DNA of 64,000 bases from contig JAFZQX010000031.1 of NCBI GenBank assembly GCA_017620205.1, positions 1 through 64,000 of the forward strand, read 5' to 3'. Shown here in pieces: positions 22,759 through 29,766 of this stretch. Numbering within the stretch: the stretch's first letter is position 1; each line of letters opens with the position of its first letter. The stretch comes from Clostridia bacterium (GTDB lineage Bacteria; Bacillota; Clostridia; UMGS1883; UMGS1540). The notes beneath the pieces were generated by a model that was given only the letters and a program-made list of their open reading frames with translations, was not told where the DNA came from and ran no database searches. The translations under genes were made by a program, and so were the position numbers.

Positions 22759-22839
22759 CCGAAAAAGGTTGGTAGCGACAGGTTGCCGTAGTGAGAGCGT
22801 TTACAAACGAACAGGCAAACTGAGCGTGACCTTTTTCGG
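22759..22839. repeat. Inverted repeat element next to the truncated hydrolase gene
   Basis: CCGAAAAAGGT (22759-22769) is a perfect inverted match to ACCTTTTTCGG (22829-22839), bracketing about 59 bp. It overlaps the readthrough tail of the truncated hydrolase gene and supports the view that this stretch is not native coding sequence. Confidence 0.6.
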
Positions 22840-23382
22840 AAAAGGAGGAACAGTGAAGCGGTGACTGATTTTTTGCAAAAAAACCGGAACAAGCGTAACT
22901 TGTTCCGACGCGGCGGAGAAAAGGGATAAAGCTTTGCTCCGCAAATCTTTCCTGCTCGGCGACCGAAAGCCAAGGCTTATCGTATCCGTATCCGAAAGTA
23001 GAACATCGGGCGTGAAGCTGTACTTATACCTGTAACCGGGGTCGTCCGATAAAGCGGTATCCTCTTCGCCCGTAACCATTTTAAAATCGTCCTTGCCGAT
23101 ATACGTTTCTGCACCGCAGAGCACCGTCAGCTCTTTAACGCCGCCCGCGTGGTCATAGTGACCGTGGGTTATAACTATTTTCTTTATATCCTTTAAGCCA
23201 AAGCCCAGCTCCTTTATATTGTCCAGAACAATCCACAAGGTATCGGGAAATCCGGGGTCGATAAGTATACGTCCGTCACCCGTGTCAATAATATGTGTTG
23301 ACGCTGAGTGAACGCCGGCAAAATATATGGGGCCGAAAACCTTACCCGGAGCGATATATCCTTTATACTGCTTTTTATCCAT
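22801..23382 (-). pseudogene. Metallo-beta-lactamase-fold hydrolase truncated by a repeat
   Basis: The reading frame gives 193 residues, but only about the first 138 are native. They align well with the intact paralogue at 15901-16647: IDTGDGRILIDPG, the zinc motif THGHYDH, GAETYIGKDDF and LLSDTDTISLG. After DTISLG (about 22970) the frame runs into a half copy of the tRNA-Ser-ended repeat, and the remaining 55 residues are repeat-encoded. The second metal motif (TPGHT) and the C-terminus are missing, and no remnant occurs further downstream. It starts 1 nt into the aldolase stop (TAATG), so it was the third gene of that operon. Probably inactive. Confidence 0.75.
22912..22970 (-). repeat. tRNA-Ser-ended repeat, copy 3 (left half only)
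   Basis: The segment matches the left ~55 bp of the repeats at 26017 and 29470, with a few changes: GCGGAGAAAAGGGATAAAGC, then CTCCGC, then CTGCTCGGCGACCGAAAGC. Its right half is missing and the sequence joins the coding frame of the hydrolase. A hairpin (CGGAACAAG/CTTGTTCCG) precedes it, as hairpins precede the other copies. Confidence 0.7.
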
Positions 23383-26016: not shown

Positions 26017-26172
26017 TGGCGGAGAGAAAGGGATAAAGCTGCTCCGCATCTTTACTGCTCGGCGACCGAAAGCTTCGCTTTCAGTACCCGCCTTCGCACC
26101 TGCTTCGCTAAAAATATGCCGCAGGCATATTTTTTTAACGCTCGCAGCCCTCTCAGGCTTCGAATCCCTTTC
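26017..26172 (-). repeat. tRNA-Ser-ended repeat, copy 1
   Basis: 156 bp, identical to 29470-29626 except for one missing G. The left edge equals the 3'-terminal 18 nt of tRNA-Ser (29675-29692, minus strand), and the right edge TTCGAATCCCTTTC matches the opposite strand of the tRNA T-arm. Inside are hairpins GAAAGC/GCTTTC and AATATGCC/GGCATATT. It lies just beyond a terminator hairpin, as a tRNA 3' end would. No protein is supported. Confidence 0.85.
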
Positions 26173-26293
26173 AAGAAAATCAAAAAAGTACATTTTGGGG
26201 GTCACCTCAAACCGTCCCCTTGACACCCATATTTCGTAATAGCACGAATGTTGCTAATTATCCTTTAGACTAATTTGGTTTGACTGCATTGAA

Positions 26294-27502
26294 TTACTCT
26301 TTCCAAGGTTCTTTTGCCGCTGATGTAAAGCTTCTTTTCCAACGGTATTTGTCTAACATTCCCTGCTCGTGAAACGAGAATTTATTAACGTTTCCTACAC
26401 TCCAACCACGATTTAAAAGATCCGTTGCAAATGGTATAAACAGTTTTTTTCTTTGATCAGACAGTTCAAAAATCTCAGACCATACACTGTCAGCAAGATC
26501 CTTTTCATGGCTGTTCCAGTAATGCCACTCCGCCTCATCAGATAATTTAACTATGTACGAAAAAGGATACTCAAAATGAGTTTCATAATATGACACTTCT
26601 TTATCAAGAACAGGCTCCTTTAACGAAAAGAGTGGTTTGGTAATAAAACTCTCATCTAACATTTCCGGTCTGGGATGTGTCTTTATAATTTCGGCTTCAT
26701 ATTCAAACATTTTCGTAGATACATCATCCGACAAACCACATATTTTCATTCTCCTAAGATACTCTTCTTTATACTTTTGCAGCCCTTTATCAAGCCACAA
26801 CGCCACTAATTGAGATGTAAGAATCTGAGCATATGCCGATCCATTTCTTTCGGATTGCATACTTTTAACATCAGTTGCATTTCCTCCGCTTTGGGGATTT
26901 GAAACCACGAGTTTTGACTTTTTTTGAAAAATCTTAGAAAAGAAACCTTGTTTTTTTTCTTTTTGAAATGCGTCGGTTCTATTTGTATTTGTAGACGGTT
27001 TCGTTTCTTCGTTTGGTTTGATGCCCGTCACAACCTTAACTTCAATGTCATCATAGAAACTATTCAGTTGTGAAATAAGGGTTTTAAACTGCGTTAAATC
27101 TTTTTCCTTCTCCTGAACCATTACCAAATATGTGATTTGAACTGTCTTCATAATGCCCGAAATGTAAAGTCCCTCTAATCCGCCTTGAATACAAAGACAA
27201 ATCGAGTTTTCAAATCGCGGGTCATAACTTACCGCCGTAATGTATTTCATCTTCCCGTTTCCTTCCGGCAACGGATTAGAAGAAACAACAAATTGTTTAC
27301 CGACAGATTTGGCAAGCTTTGCTTTTTCAATTAACCTGATGTTTGGATCAGGATCATGAAGTTTCGATGTTCCTGCAGGATCAACCTTTGAAATAATTCC
27401 ATTATTATGCATCTCATTAATTGCATTTTCCTCAATACAGAACAATTGCATTTTTTTGTTTTCATCCAAGCGATCATACAGCGATTTTACAAATGGTTCC
27501 AT
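26294..27502 (-). CDS. Unknown 402-residue protein, partner of HTH/CYTH gene
   Basis: 402 residues with no signal peptide or membrane segment; AGGAGG precedes the ATG. Residues 1-165 look alpha/beta (FVVSSNPLPEGNGKMKYITAV, MKTVQITYLVMVQEKEKDL). A Lys/Thr/Ser/Asn-rich linker covers about 165-210 (KKQGFFSKIFQKKSK), and a helical C-terminal domain follows (about 225-402; ILTSQLVALWLDKGLQKYKEEYL, with WHYWNSHEKDLADSVWSEIF further on). I do not recognise the family. It starts 10 nt after the HTH/P-loop/CYTH gene and is certainly co-transcribed. Both genes are AT-richer than the flanking genes to the eye. Confidence 0.75.
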   Translation of the reverse strand: MEPFVKSLYDRLDENKKMQLFCIEENAINEMHNNGIISKVDPAGTSKLHDPDPNIRLIEKAKLAKSVGKQFVVSSNPLPEGNGKMKYITAVSYDPRFENSICLCIQGGLEGLYISGIMKTVQITYLVMVQEKEKDLTQFKTLISQLNSFYDDIEVKVVTGIKPNEETKPSTNTNRTDAFQKEKKQGFFSKIFQKKSKLVVSNPQSGGNATDVKSMQSERNGSAYAQILTSQLVALWLDKGLQKYKEEYLRRMKICGLSDDVSTKMFEYEAEIIKTHPRPEMLDESFITKPLFSLKEPVLDKEVSYYETHFEYPFSYIVKLSDEAEWHYWNSHEKDLADSVWSEIFELSDQRKKLFIPFATDLLNRGWSVGNVNKFSFHEQGMLDKYRWKRSFTSAAKEPWKE

Positions 27503-27512
27503 AATATGCCTC

Positions 27513-28817
27513 CTAAATCATTGCAAGCACTGAATTCTTATACGCATCATCATCTGTGACTTCTTTAATAACCTTAATGAATTTCGGTATTTTTATTGCT
27601 TCGTTTTCATCGCTTAATTCTATTTCCATAATTGCCTTGTCCTGCCAAAACGGATAAATATCAATTTCAAAGTATTGATTTTCATAAGTTAAACAATACC
27701 TTGTTTTTCTTATTTGTCGTTTGGTGGTATCGGCATTCATAAGCTCGGCAAGATATTCGTCTTTGCTAAGCCTCTTTTCGATCTCGACTCTCTTAATATT
27801 GCTTATTTTCCTTTTCGTTGTTTTGAAATATATATAATTTCCGTTTTCACCACGCTGCCTTACTCGTACTTCATCATCATTATCAGATTTCAGATAAGTT
27901 TGTATGATTTCGGTCTTTCTACAAAGTGGATTAGATTCAAGTGTTTTAATATTTGGGTACTCGATTAGAAATTTTCTTTCTACTTCATACGGTTCGGGTT
28001 CTCCAAGAAAAGAAGATATTTCTTTTATCAGTCTTTTCATTTTGTCTTCAAAATCGCTTGAATTATCTATTATTCTTAAATGAGGATGACCTGTCCAGGC
28101 AGATATTAGTTTGTCATCAATCTCCGCCGCTTCTTCTACGGTTTCCGTTCTTGCTTGATTATTGCTTAATGTATAGAATTCCTCTGCTCCTTTTGCGGCA
28201 GTAACAAGATGAAATACTGCATCGTATGTATCCCTTAGCTCTATTTCATTGAGGTTTAAGGCATCCAAAACCTGTAAAAATTCCGTTTCGGTCATATACG
28301 CCTTGTTATCCATTACACCTCTGTCGCAAACAATCAGTACCTTTTCGGAATTAAAAATGTTTTTTGCCGCACGAACAAATACTTTTTCTTTTTCAATCTG
28401 CAATCTCAACAAGCAACTTTGAAAATCTTCATTGCTTTTTAATGTCCAGGGCGCAACCCCACCGGTGATAAGTTCTGTAGCTGTTTCGGGAACAAACAAT
28501 ACTGAATATCCCAGTTCCGTGAAGGCATTTTGGATCCAGCTCATTGCCGTGCTTTTTCCGGCACAAGGTCCGCCCGTTATGACTATTTTTGTGATTTGCA
28601 TTGTTTTGTTTTCACTCCTCAATAATAATTTATCAACGGGGATATTGAATATGACTGATAGTTTTTTTAGTGTATCTGTAACAGGCTTTGCTTTGCCTGT
28701 TTCCCATTTAGATACCGCCTTATTGGTGACACCGAGTTTTGATGCAAGCTCCGTTTGGGACATTCCTGATCTTGTTCTTAACTCACAAATTTTGTTTCCA
28801 AAATCAAAATCGTTCAT
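27513..28817 (-). CDS. Fusion: HTH + P-loop kinase-like ATPase + CYTH domain
   Basis: 434 residues from ATG 28817, chosen because AGGAG lies 8 nt upstream. Residues 3-62 are an XRE-type HTH (MSQTELASKLGVTNKAVSKWET). Residues 75-270 form a P-loop NTPase with Walker A GGPCAGKST (82-90) and a CDRGVMD block (164-170), as in AAA_28/kinase-like ATPases. Residues 277-434 are a CYTH/triphosphate-tunnel domain with the signature EVERK (278-282), VRVRQRG, KRVEIEKRL and EIDIYPF. CYTH enzymes act on triphosphates or adenylate; the partner substrate here is unknown. It heads a two-gene cassette bracketed by repeats. Confidence 0.85.
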   Translation of the reverse strand: MNDFDFGNKICELRTRSGMSQTELASKLGVTNKAVSKWETGKAKPVTDTLKKLSVIFNIPVDKLLLRSENKTMQITKIVITGGPCAGKSTAMSWIQNAFTELGYSVLFVPETATELITGGVAPWTLKSNEDFQSCLLRLQIEKEKVFVRAAKNIFNSEKVLIVCDRGVMDNKAYMTETEFLQVLDALNLNEIELRDTYDAVFHLVTAAKGAEEFYTLSNNQARTETVEEAAEIDDKLISAWTGHPHLRIIDNSSDFEDKMKRLIKEISSFLGEPEPYEVERKFLIEYPNIKTLESNPLCRKTEIIQTYLKSDNDDEVRVRQRGENGNYIYFKTTKRKISNIKRVEIEKRLSKDEYLAELMNADTTKRQIRKTRYCLTYENQYFEIDIYPFWQDKAIMEIELSDENEAIKIPKFIKVIKEVTDDDAYKNSVLAMI

Positions 28818-29265
28818 ACACATCACTCCTTTCCAAAATTATTATATACAGATTTTCATTCAACTTCAAGATTACACTATCGAATATAGGTAGATATTCG
28901 CAATCCGGCAGTTTTTTGAAAACCCGCAAAATTTACTCCAACTTTAATAAGTTAGGGGACAAAAAGAGCTGTACACGTTTTATCAACCTGCATCACGCGC
29001 CAGTATTACTTTGAAAAAATCTGATTTTATTATAGCACAAAAACATAAATAATTCAAGATTTTTGGTAGTAAAATGTTCACCTTGCACAATTTTATAAGT
29101 TTCGTCAATTCTACCATTCGACTGTATTCGGTATCATACAGAATAACCAAAACCGTTCTTTGGTCATTTATCAATGATGCCTATATTTCAGCAAAAAAAA
29201 ATAAAAAGCCAAAGCTCCTCATTTCATCATTTTAATGCTTAAAAAGTATAAACAGGCCTACGGTA

Positions 29266-29335
29266 GGGGCTTGAACTATTTTGAAAAATCCAGTGTTGGT
29301 GCGGCTTTAAAGGGTTCAAGTCCCTTCCTTTGCTC
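29266..29335. repeat. T-arm-like inverted repeat
   Basis: CTTGAAC (29270-29276) is inverted relative to GTTCAAG (29314-29320), and the latter sits in GGGTTCAAGTCCC, a tRNA T-arm sequence, followed by CCTTTGCTCC. No full cloverleaf can be drawn, so it is a tRNA-derived fragment at most. Its layout resembles the ~156-bp tRNA-ended repeats. Confidence 0.45.
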
Positions 29336-29469
29336 CGATTTTTGCCTATCTCGCAAAAAAATAAGACCTCCGAAAAAATCTCCGAAAGCCCTAAAAAGCG
29401 TGTCGTCATGCGGTTTGCGCACAAAAAAAAGAATAACTTTTGCTTGGTATACAAAAGTTATTCCATAGG

Positions 29470-29626
29470 TGGCGGAGAGAAAGGGATAAAGCTGCTCCGC
29501 ATCTTTACTGCTCGGCGACCGAAAGCTTGCGCTTTCAGTACCCGCCTTCGCACCTGCTTCGCTAAAAATATGCCGCAGGCATATTTTTTTAACGCTCGCA
29601 GCCCTCTCAGGCTTCGAATCCCTTTC
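29470..29626 (-). repeat. tRNA-Ser-ended repeat, copy 2
   Basis: 157 bp, one base longer than copy 1 and otherwise identical, in direct orientation 3.45 kb away. It ends 48 bp before the true tRNA-Ser gene. A reading frame across it exists but is repeat-encoded and has no ribosome binding site. Confidence 0.85.
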
Positions 29627-29640
29627 TTTTTTCAACAAAT

Positions 29641-29672
29641 AAAAATGCTACCGCAAAAGCGGTAGCATTTTT
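29641..29672 (-). terminator. Terminator of tRNA-Ser
   Basis: AAAAATGCTACCGC and GCGGTAGCATTTTT form a 14-bp stem with an AAAA loop and T-run, directly 3' of the tRNA. Confidence 0.85.
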
Positions 29673-29674
29673 AT

Positions 29675-29766
29675 TGGCGGAGAGAAAGGGATTCGAACCC
29701 TTGAGACGCTATTAACGCCTACACGATTTCCAATCGTGCGCCTTAGACCAACTCAGCCATCTCTCC
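29675..29766 (-). tRNA. tRNA-Ser (GGA)
   Basis: 92 nt including an encoded CCA. The acceptor GGAGAGA pairs with TCTCTCC, the D-arm is present, the anticodon loop TTGGAAA gives anticodon GGA (codon UCC), a long variable arm (TAGGCGTTAATAGCGTCT) marks a class II tRNA, and the T-arm is GGGTTCGAATCCC. A promoter and terminator flank it. Confidence 0.95.

Follow-up and report, generated by a model that had tools for sequence, protein, structure and literature searches.

We describe a cassette of two genes, found in a Clostridia bacterium of gut type, that we read, at roughly even odds (a probability of about 0.5), as horizontally acquired and self-regulated, its first gene encoding a one-component regulator that would sense or process a phosphorylated small molecule. 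The reading draws on the domain make-up of the first protein, its intact active-site motifs, a promoter motif common to its relatives, recurring linkage to the second gene, and foreign base composition, all of them visible in the sequence. In the window (the whole stretch of DNA that was analyzed, 64,000 nucleotides), the cassette consists of two minus-strand open reading frames, 28817-27513 and then 27502-26294, separated by 10 nt:

27513..28817, minus strand: gene 1, a 434-residue HTH, AAA_28, and CYTH fusion protein
26294..27502, minus strand: gene 2, a 402-residue orphan partner with 0 matches in Pfam, NCBIfam, PADLOC, PHROGs, and PDB

Gene 1 encodes a three-domain fusion protein

The longest open reading frame for gene 1 opens at a GTG at 28826. 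We placed the real start at the ATG at 28817 because all six HTH-fused relatives conserve the sequence MND(F/Y)xFG and because an AGGAG box lies 8 nt upstream. A preliminary description of this DNA had proposed that a helix-turn-helix (HTH), a P-loop, and a CYTH domain are joined in this protein, and a Pfam search bore this out, with all three domains above their gathering cut-offs:

28626..28784, minus strand: HTH_3 (Cro/CI-type) DNA-binding domain, residues 12-64 (Pfam PF01381, E = 2.4e-13)
28041..28589, minus strand: AAA_28 P-loop domain, residues 77-259 (Pfam PF13521, E = 1.9e-26)
27519..27986, minus strand: CYTH / triphosphate tunnel domain, residues 278-433 (Pfam PF01928, E = 3.4e-6)

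The four motifs named there (GGPCAGKST, EVERK, VRVRQRG, and EIDIYPF) were also all found in gene 1. Since relatives with the same domain order, 64-73% identical to gene 1, occur in other genomes, the fusion is not an artefact of assembly or reading frame.

The AAA_28 match scored 93.7 bits against a Pfam cut-off of 27, with the Walker A motif GGPCAGKST at residues 82-90 and DRGxxDxxAY (within a CDRGxxDxxAY stretch) after Walker B. The nearest NCBIfam model for this domain was dTMP kinase (TIGR00041), matched weakly and below cut-off. The CYTH domain lies on the C-terminal side of the P-loop domain and is colinear with its relatives; it scored 27.4 bits against a cut-off of 23.2 and retains its motifs intact: ExExK (EVERK, residues 278-282), xRxR, and the acidic EID and ExE motifs. 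By phmmer, it aligned along its entire length with NE1496 (NeuTTM; PDB 2fbl and 3typ) at 6e-8. Tyr28 and Lys52 of NeuTTM have been proposed as catalytic (PMC3440374), and Y308 and K335 of gene 1 are their equivalents in this alignment; NeuTTM differs in being a free-standing single domain, whereas the CYTH domain of gene 1 is fused. Published motif criteria reserve HF for class IV cyclases and WxRxR for thiamine triphosphatases (PMC8233210). Neither motif is present in the CYTH domain of gene 1, where LGEPEPY precedes EVERK and EVRVR takes the place of WxRxR; for this reason a triphosphatase-type triphosphate tunnel metalloenzyme (TTM) is our best guess from the sequence.

A P-loop NTPase domain followed by CYTH in one chain is the architecture of Drosophila TTD14, a cytosolic trafficking protein that binds GTP via its P-loop and also binds phosphoinositide phospholipids, and in which the proline of Walker A is essential (PMC4624897). 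The AAA_28-CYTH core of gene 1 is therefore of a known kind and is not new. The likeness, drawn from the published description of TTD14, extends to the distance from Walker A to CYTH (∼206 residues in TTD14, ∼195 in gene 1) and to the conserved Walker A proline (P75 in TTD14, P84 in gene 1); however, no HTH is reported for TTD14. Plant TTM1 and TTM2 also join a kinase-type domain to CYTH, but they lack the ExExK and ExE motifs (PMC8233210) that gene 1 keeps, and they too have no HTH. A literature search found no paper on the HTH-AAA_28-CYTH combination. The source for earlier kinase-CYTH fusions is said to be Iyer and Aravind 2002.

A conserved promoter motif points to local autoregulation

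Upstream of gene 1 we identified a promoter and a conserved motif:

28877..28894, minus strand: putative operator TCTACCTATATTCGATAG with the core TCTACY-N4-TTC, which is conserved in the upstream DNA of each of the six HTH-fused genes
28841..28869, minus strand: sigma-70-like promoter TTGAAG-17-TATAAT, the same box in the same place in six HTH-fused relatives

Each of the six HTH-bearing genes has a TTGAAx-(16-18)-TATAAT-like promoter, and the core sits 24-25 nt upstream of its first base; identity of the core across the six promoters was 0.93-1.0 versus 0.27-0.40 in flanking DNA. The motif occurred in 0 of 14 control promoters, drawn from relatives without the HTH and from lone partner genes. 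None of 20,000 shuffled sets reached even three of the six promoters, and an unbiased gapped-word search reached five of the six, against at most four in 200 shuffles.

Allowing up to two mismatches genome-wide, the site was unique in G004 and G274, and G000 held one other match only, with two mismatches, where a reversed-pattern control yielded as many. A regulon search across these three whole genomes detected no convincing second operator. Because the operator is single or nearly so in all three, with extras no more numerous than in the reversed-pattern control, we regard the HTH protein as a local regulator, and TCTACY-N4-TTC points to a dedicated local autoregulatory operator. Its position upstream of the -35 box fits repression or activation alike and does not decide between them.

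The cassette is foreign in composition and flanked by repeats

GC content was 0.359 at 26173-29469 versus 0.44-0.45 outside, and GC3 was 0.32-0.33 in the cassette versus 0.45-0.53 in its flanks. Two copies of a dispersed repeat bound this segment:

26017..26172, no strand assigned: left copy of the dispersed repeat, flanking the cassette
29470..29626, no strand assigned: right copy of the repeat, adjoining a tRNA-Ser gene (29675-29766)

The two flanking copies (156-157 nt) are identical bar one 1-nt indel, and no other copy in the genome exceeds 81% identity over a comparable length. The cassette of G004 lies at another chromosomal site, adjoining a YchF-like GTPase gene. G002 keeps the recA-leuA region without the cassette, an empty-site comparison at leuA in which the relatives differ in gene order beyond leuA. 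From its sequence, the cassette is foreign-looking and was probably acquired.

The repeat itself is matched, fully or in part, at ∼18 places in the genome, 16 of them besides the two flanking copies. It starts in sequence that matches the end of the tRNA-Ser gene (29665-29692) and closes with an inverted match to the same part of the tRNA, and is possibly a tRNA-derived or tRNA-targeting element. Elsewhere in the window, an open reading frame with a metallo-beta-lactamase fold (22801-23382), whose domain match ends at profile position 120 of 196, contains in its 3' part an incomplete repeat copy (22912-22970, 90%), as though the gene had been truncated by it.

The partner protein carries a conserved helical domain

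The preliminary description had correctly located a 402-residue neighbor 10 nt from gene 1 that it could not place. In our hands the partner likewise gave no significant sequence match in the five libraries searched (Pfam, NCBIfam, PADLOC, PHROGs, and PDB), housekeeping families included. Its features are as follows:

26333..26839, minus strand: C-terminal all-helical domain, ∼residues 222-390 (alignments; AlphaFold pLDDT 83, pTM 0.81)
26504..26539, minus strand: signature DEAEWHYWNSHE, residues 322-333, near-invariant in six of six sequences
26912..26947, minus strand: basic/aromatic linker QGFFSKIFQKKS, approximately residues 186-197, matching the N terminus of a free-standing relative in L007 (alignment)
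26948..27502, minus strand: N-terminal region, residues 1-185, with no relatives found and no confident model

The C-terminal domain was aligned across six sequences (the window protein and those of L006/L046, L007, L008, L009, and L010), and homology among partners is restricted to these C-terminal ∼170 residues. The N terminus of the window partner had no homologue in 186 genomes, and neither BLAST nor hhalign showed it to be related to the N-terminal region of the L010 partner. In the window and in L007 the C-terminal domain is preceded by a basic-aromatic segment (FFSKIF..KK); G004 and L010 have similar stretches, and in the Coriobacteriia relatives hydrophobic N-terminal stretches replace the segment. 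Taken together, these segments suggest, at the level of sequence, that the partner associates with the membrane.

Of the structural searches that had been proposed for this protein, AlphaFold, run on the full length and on the C-terminal domain, modeled the latter confidently; Foldseek comparison against PDB and viral libraries gave no significant neighbor. Scattered TenA/ferritin-like Foldseek matches had E > 1, and we set this identity aside. Neither sequence nor fold searches predicted an activity, and searches of plasmid and phage collections and of viral contigs found no copy of the partner. The C-terminal domain represents a family that has no model in the libraries searched.

The partner recurs next to the HTH-fused gene

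The preliminary description had suggested that the neighborhood be checked for conserved pairing. Such pairing was found: the same C-terminal domain directly follows three of the four intact HTH-AAA_28-CYTH genes with readable downstream sequence (window, G004, and L010), after a 10-nt gap in the window, with a start/stop overlap in G004, and after a 27-nt gap in L010. G274 is the exception, its intact HTH-fused gene being followed by an ECF transporter S-component gene and no partner. Nor does the partner follow the HTH-AAA_28 gene of G016, from which most of CYTH is deleted. Conversely, the partner domain occurs without a neighboring HTH-fused gene in L007 (a Ruminococcus MAG) and in L008 and L009 (two Coriobacteriia MAGs). 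AAA_28-CYTH was present in six of the six genomes found to hold the partner domain; a whole-genome search of the four genomes reached via that domain found it in 4/4, at 59-72% identity. This co-occurrence is suggestive only, because the comparison rate (gene 1 matches at E ≤ 1e-60 in 11 of 391 genomes) is that of the window's class and not one for Coriobacteriia.

Could the pairing be accidental, with gene 1 an ordinary AAA_28-CYTH protein to which an autoregulatory HTH has been added, and the partner an unrelated passenger? AAA_28-CYTH is mostly found alone, and so in places is the partner domain. However, in three genomes a member of one and the same domain family comes immediately after the HTH-fused gene, with a start-stop overlap in G004, and the 6/6 co-occurrence also argues against chance; we consider this the least likely of the explanations weighed here. 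Scarcely more probable is a type II toxin-antitoxin system, with the HTH protein as antitoxin and the 402-residue protein as toxin. The order of regulator then partner, the autoregulatory site, and the acquired cassette would all suit such a system, but it would be unusual for an antitoxin to have 434 residues and two enzyme-like domains, the partner domain lacks a neighboring HTH gene in L007, L008, and L009, and the HTH-fused gene of G274 lacks a partner. The toxin-antitoxin-like module envisaged in the preliminary description found no backing in Pfam, NCBIfam, or PADLOC, where no toxin family matched the partner.

The gene downstream in G274 bears on another alternative. Lying at 6136-6678 of L037, 9 nt after the HTH-AAA_28-CYTH gene, it encodes an ECF transporter S component of the riboflavin/folate type, a possible hint at the ligand. 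NadR combines an HTH with an NMN adenylyltransferase and a ribosylnicotinamide kinase, the last an AAA_28-type kinase. Its kinase fusion has been described (PMC9503650), and the union of an HTH with a P-loop kinase-type domain in one chain makes NadR a plausible working model for gene 1. By analogy, the P-loop kinase would act on a vitamin or nucleoside, CYTH would remove a triphosphate by-product, and the HTH would repress a small operon for uptake or salvage in response to substrate level, with the partner as an accessory. The kinase-like character of AAA_28, with its weak similarity to dTMP kinase, and the folate/riboflavin-type component in G274 favor such metabolic control. On the other hand, a Pfam scan of gene 1 found CYTH and no NMN adenylyltransferase domain, so that gene 1 is not a NadR member; the transporter is present at only one of six loci; the ECF model scores fall under the NCBIfam cut-offs; and no salvage genes were seen adjoining the cassette. 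We consider a NadR-like salvage regulator unlikely, although it leads the rival explanations.

HTH-fused genes are rare among AAA_28-CYTH relatives

We found six HTH-fused genes: the HTH-AAA_28-CYTH class in the window, G004, G274, L010, and L027 (the last cut by a contig end), and the G016 gene, which keeps both ends of CYTH. AAA_28-CYTH without the HTH was found in G272, G314, G064, G183, and G091, AAA_28 alone in G017, G019, and G020, and CYTH alone in G002, G003, and G005. Neither domain therefore needs the HTH, and since G016 has lost most of CYTH and kept HTH-AAA_28 and the promoter motif, CYTH can be dispensed with in at least one gene. A tree of 14 rows did not settle the branching order of the HTH-fused members. 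In a phylum sample of 398 genomes, the only match at E ≤ 1e-60 was the window's own genome, and AAA_28-CYTH was rare in plasmid and phage collections. In three genomes of one genus (L044, L045, and L050), free-standing AAA_28 genes have in their vicinity a small conserved gene and one for a BipA/TypA-like translation GTPase.

Wide occurrence of homologues without the partner had been named as an outcome that would speak against a paired system, and here the picture is mixed: AAA_28-CYTH is widespread without HTH and without partner (in other Clostridia, in Coriobacteriia, and on phage contigs, including two jumbo-sized ones), and the partner domain is also found without an adjacent regulator, as in L007-L009.

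Several of these neighborhoods evoke a conflict or defense module acting on nucleotide or NAD/ADP-ribose signals and carried by islets and phages. The AAA_28-CYTH proteins of viral contigs L083 (394 kb) and L084 (467 kb) share 64-65% identity with the window protein; in L084 the genes that come next specify an ADP-ribosylglycohydrolase and a sigma-70-like factor. L027, also from a viral contig, adjoins a serine recombinase. In G016 (L039, 4992-9577), the HTH-AAA_28 gene lies beside genes for a macro-domain protein, an HD protein, and a fusion of PARG with ADP-ribosylglycohydrolase. The foreign composition and repeat flanks of the window cassette would also fit. Against such a role, PADLOC returned for gene 1 only matches driven by the HTH, apart from one marginal match to mad8 (E = 0.007), and none for gene 2; neither the window locus nor most relatives showed defense genes nearby; the neighbors are not conserved; and adjacency to ADP-ribose genes at two loci may be chance. 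We treat the ADP-ribose neighborhoods of G016 and L084 as a lead and not as evidence, and judge a conflict role improbable, placing it behind NadR-like metabolic control and ahead of the toxin-antitoxin and accidental-pairing explanations. The defense module suggested in the preliminary description is similarly disfavored by the lack of a defense island.

A model for the cassette and its implications

The preliminary idea of a regulator acting with a partner is thus retained in part: the regulator-like fusion, the recurring linkage (3/4 loci), and the dedicated operator support it, while its toxin-antitoxin and defense readings are not upheld. In the self-regulated cassette that we favor, the Cro/CI-type HTH of gene 1 would bind one dedicated operator upstream of its own -35 box. 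A phosphorylated small molecule or nucleotide would be bound, and probably also turned over, by the nucleotide-kinase-like AAA_28 and inorganic-triphosphatase-type CYTH domains, whose ligand state would set DNA binding by the HTH. Gene 2, from the same transcript, would supply an output or helper protein whose conserved helical C-terminal domain is probably kept near the membrane. The partnerless gene of G274, the loss of most of CYTH in G016, and the occurrence of AAA_28 and CYTH as separate genes count against this model, as do the failure of the searches to predict an activity for the partner or to match its fold.

More tentatively, gene 1 may belong to a new class of bacterial one-component regulators. 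Such a regulator would use a TTD14-like kinase/triphosphatase core to detect a phosphorylated messenger and would govern a mobile operon, the product of which would belong to an undescribed family of membrane-associated helical effectors defined by DEAEWHYWNSHE; we hold this broader proposal to be possible and less probable than the cassette model itself. The role of AAA_28-CYTH proteins is poorly understood, although they are present in bacteria, phages, and animals. The promoter-wired version described here offers a direct handle on this question: a small molecule that alters binding to the 18-bp site would likely be the ligand of the whole family.
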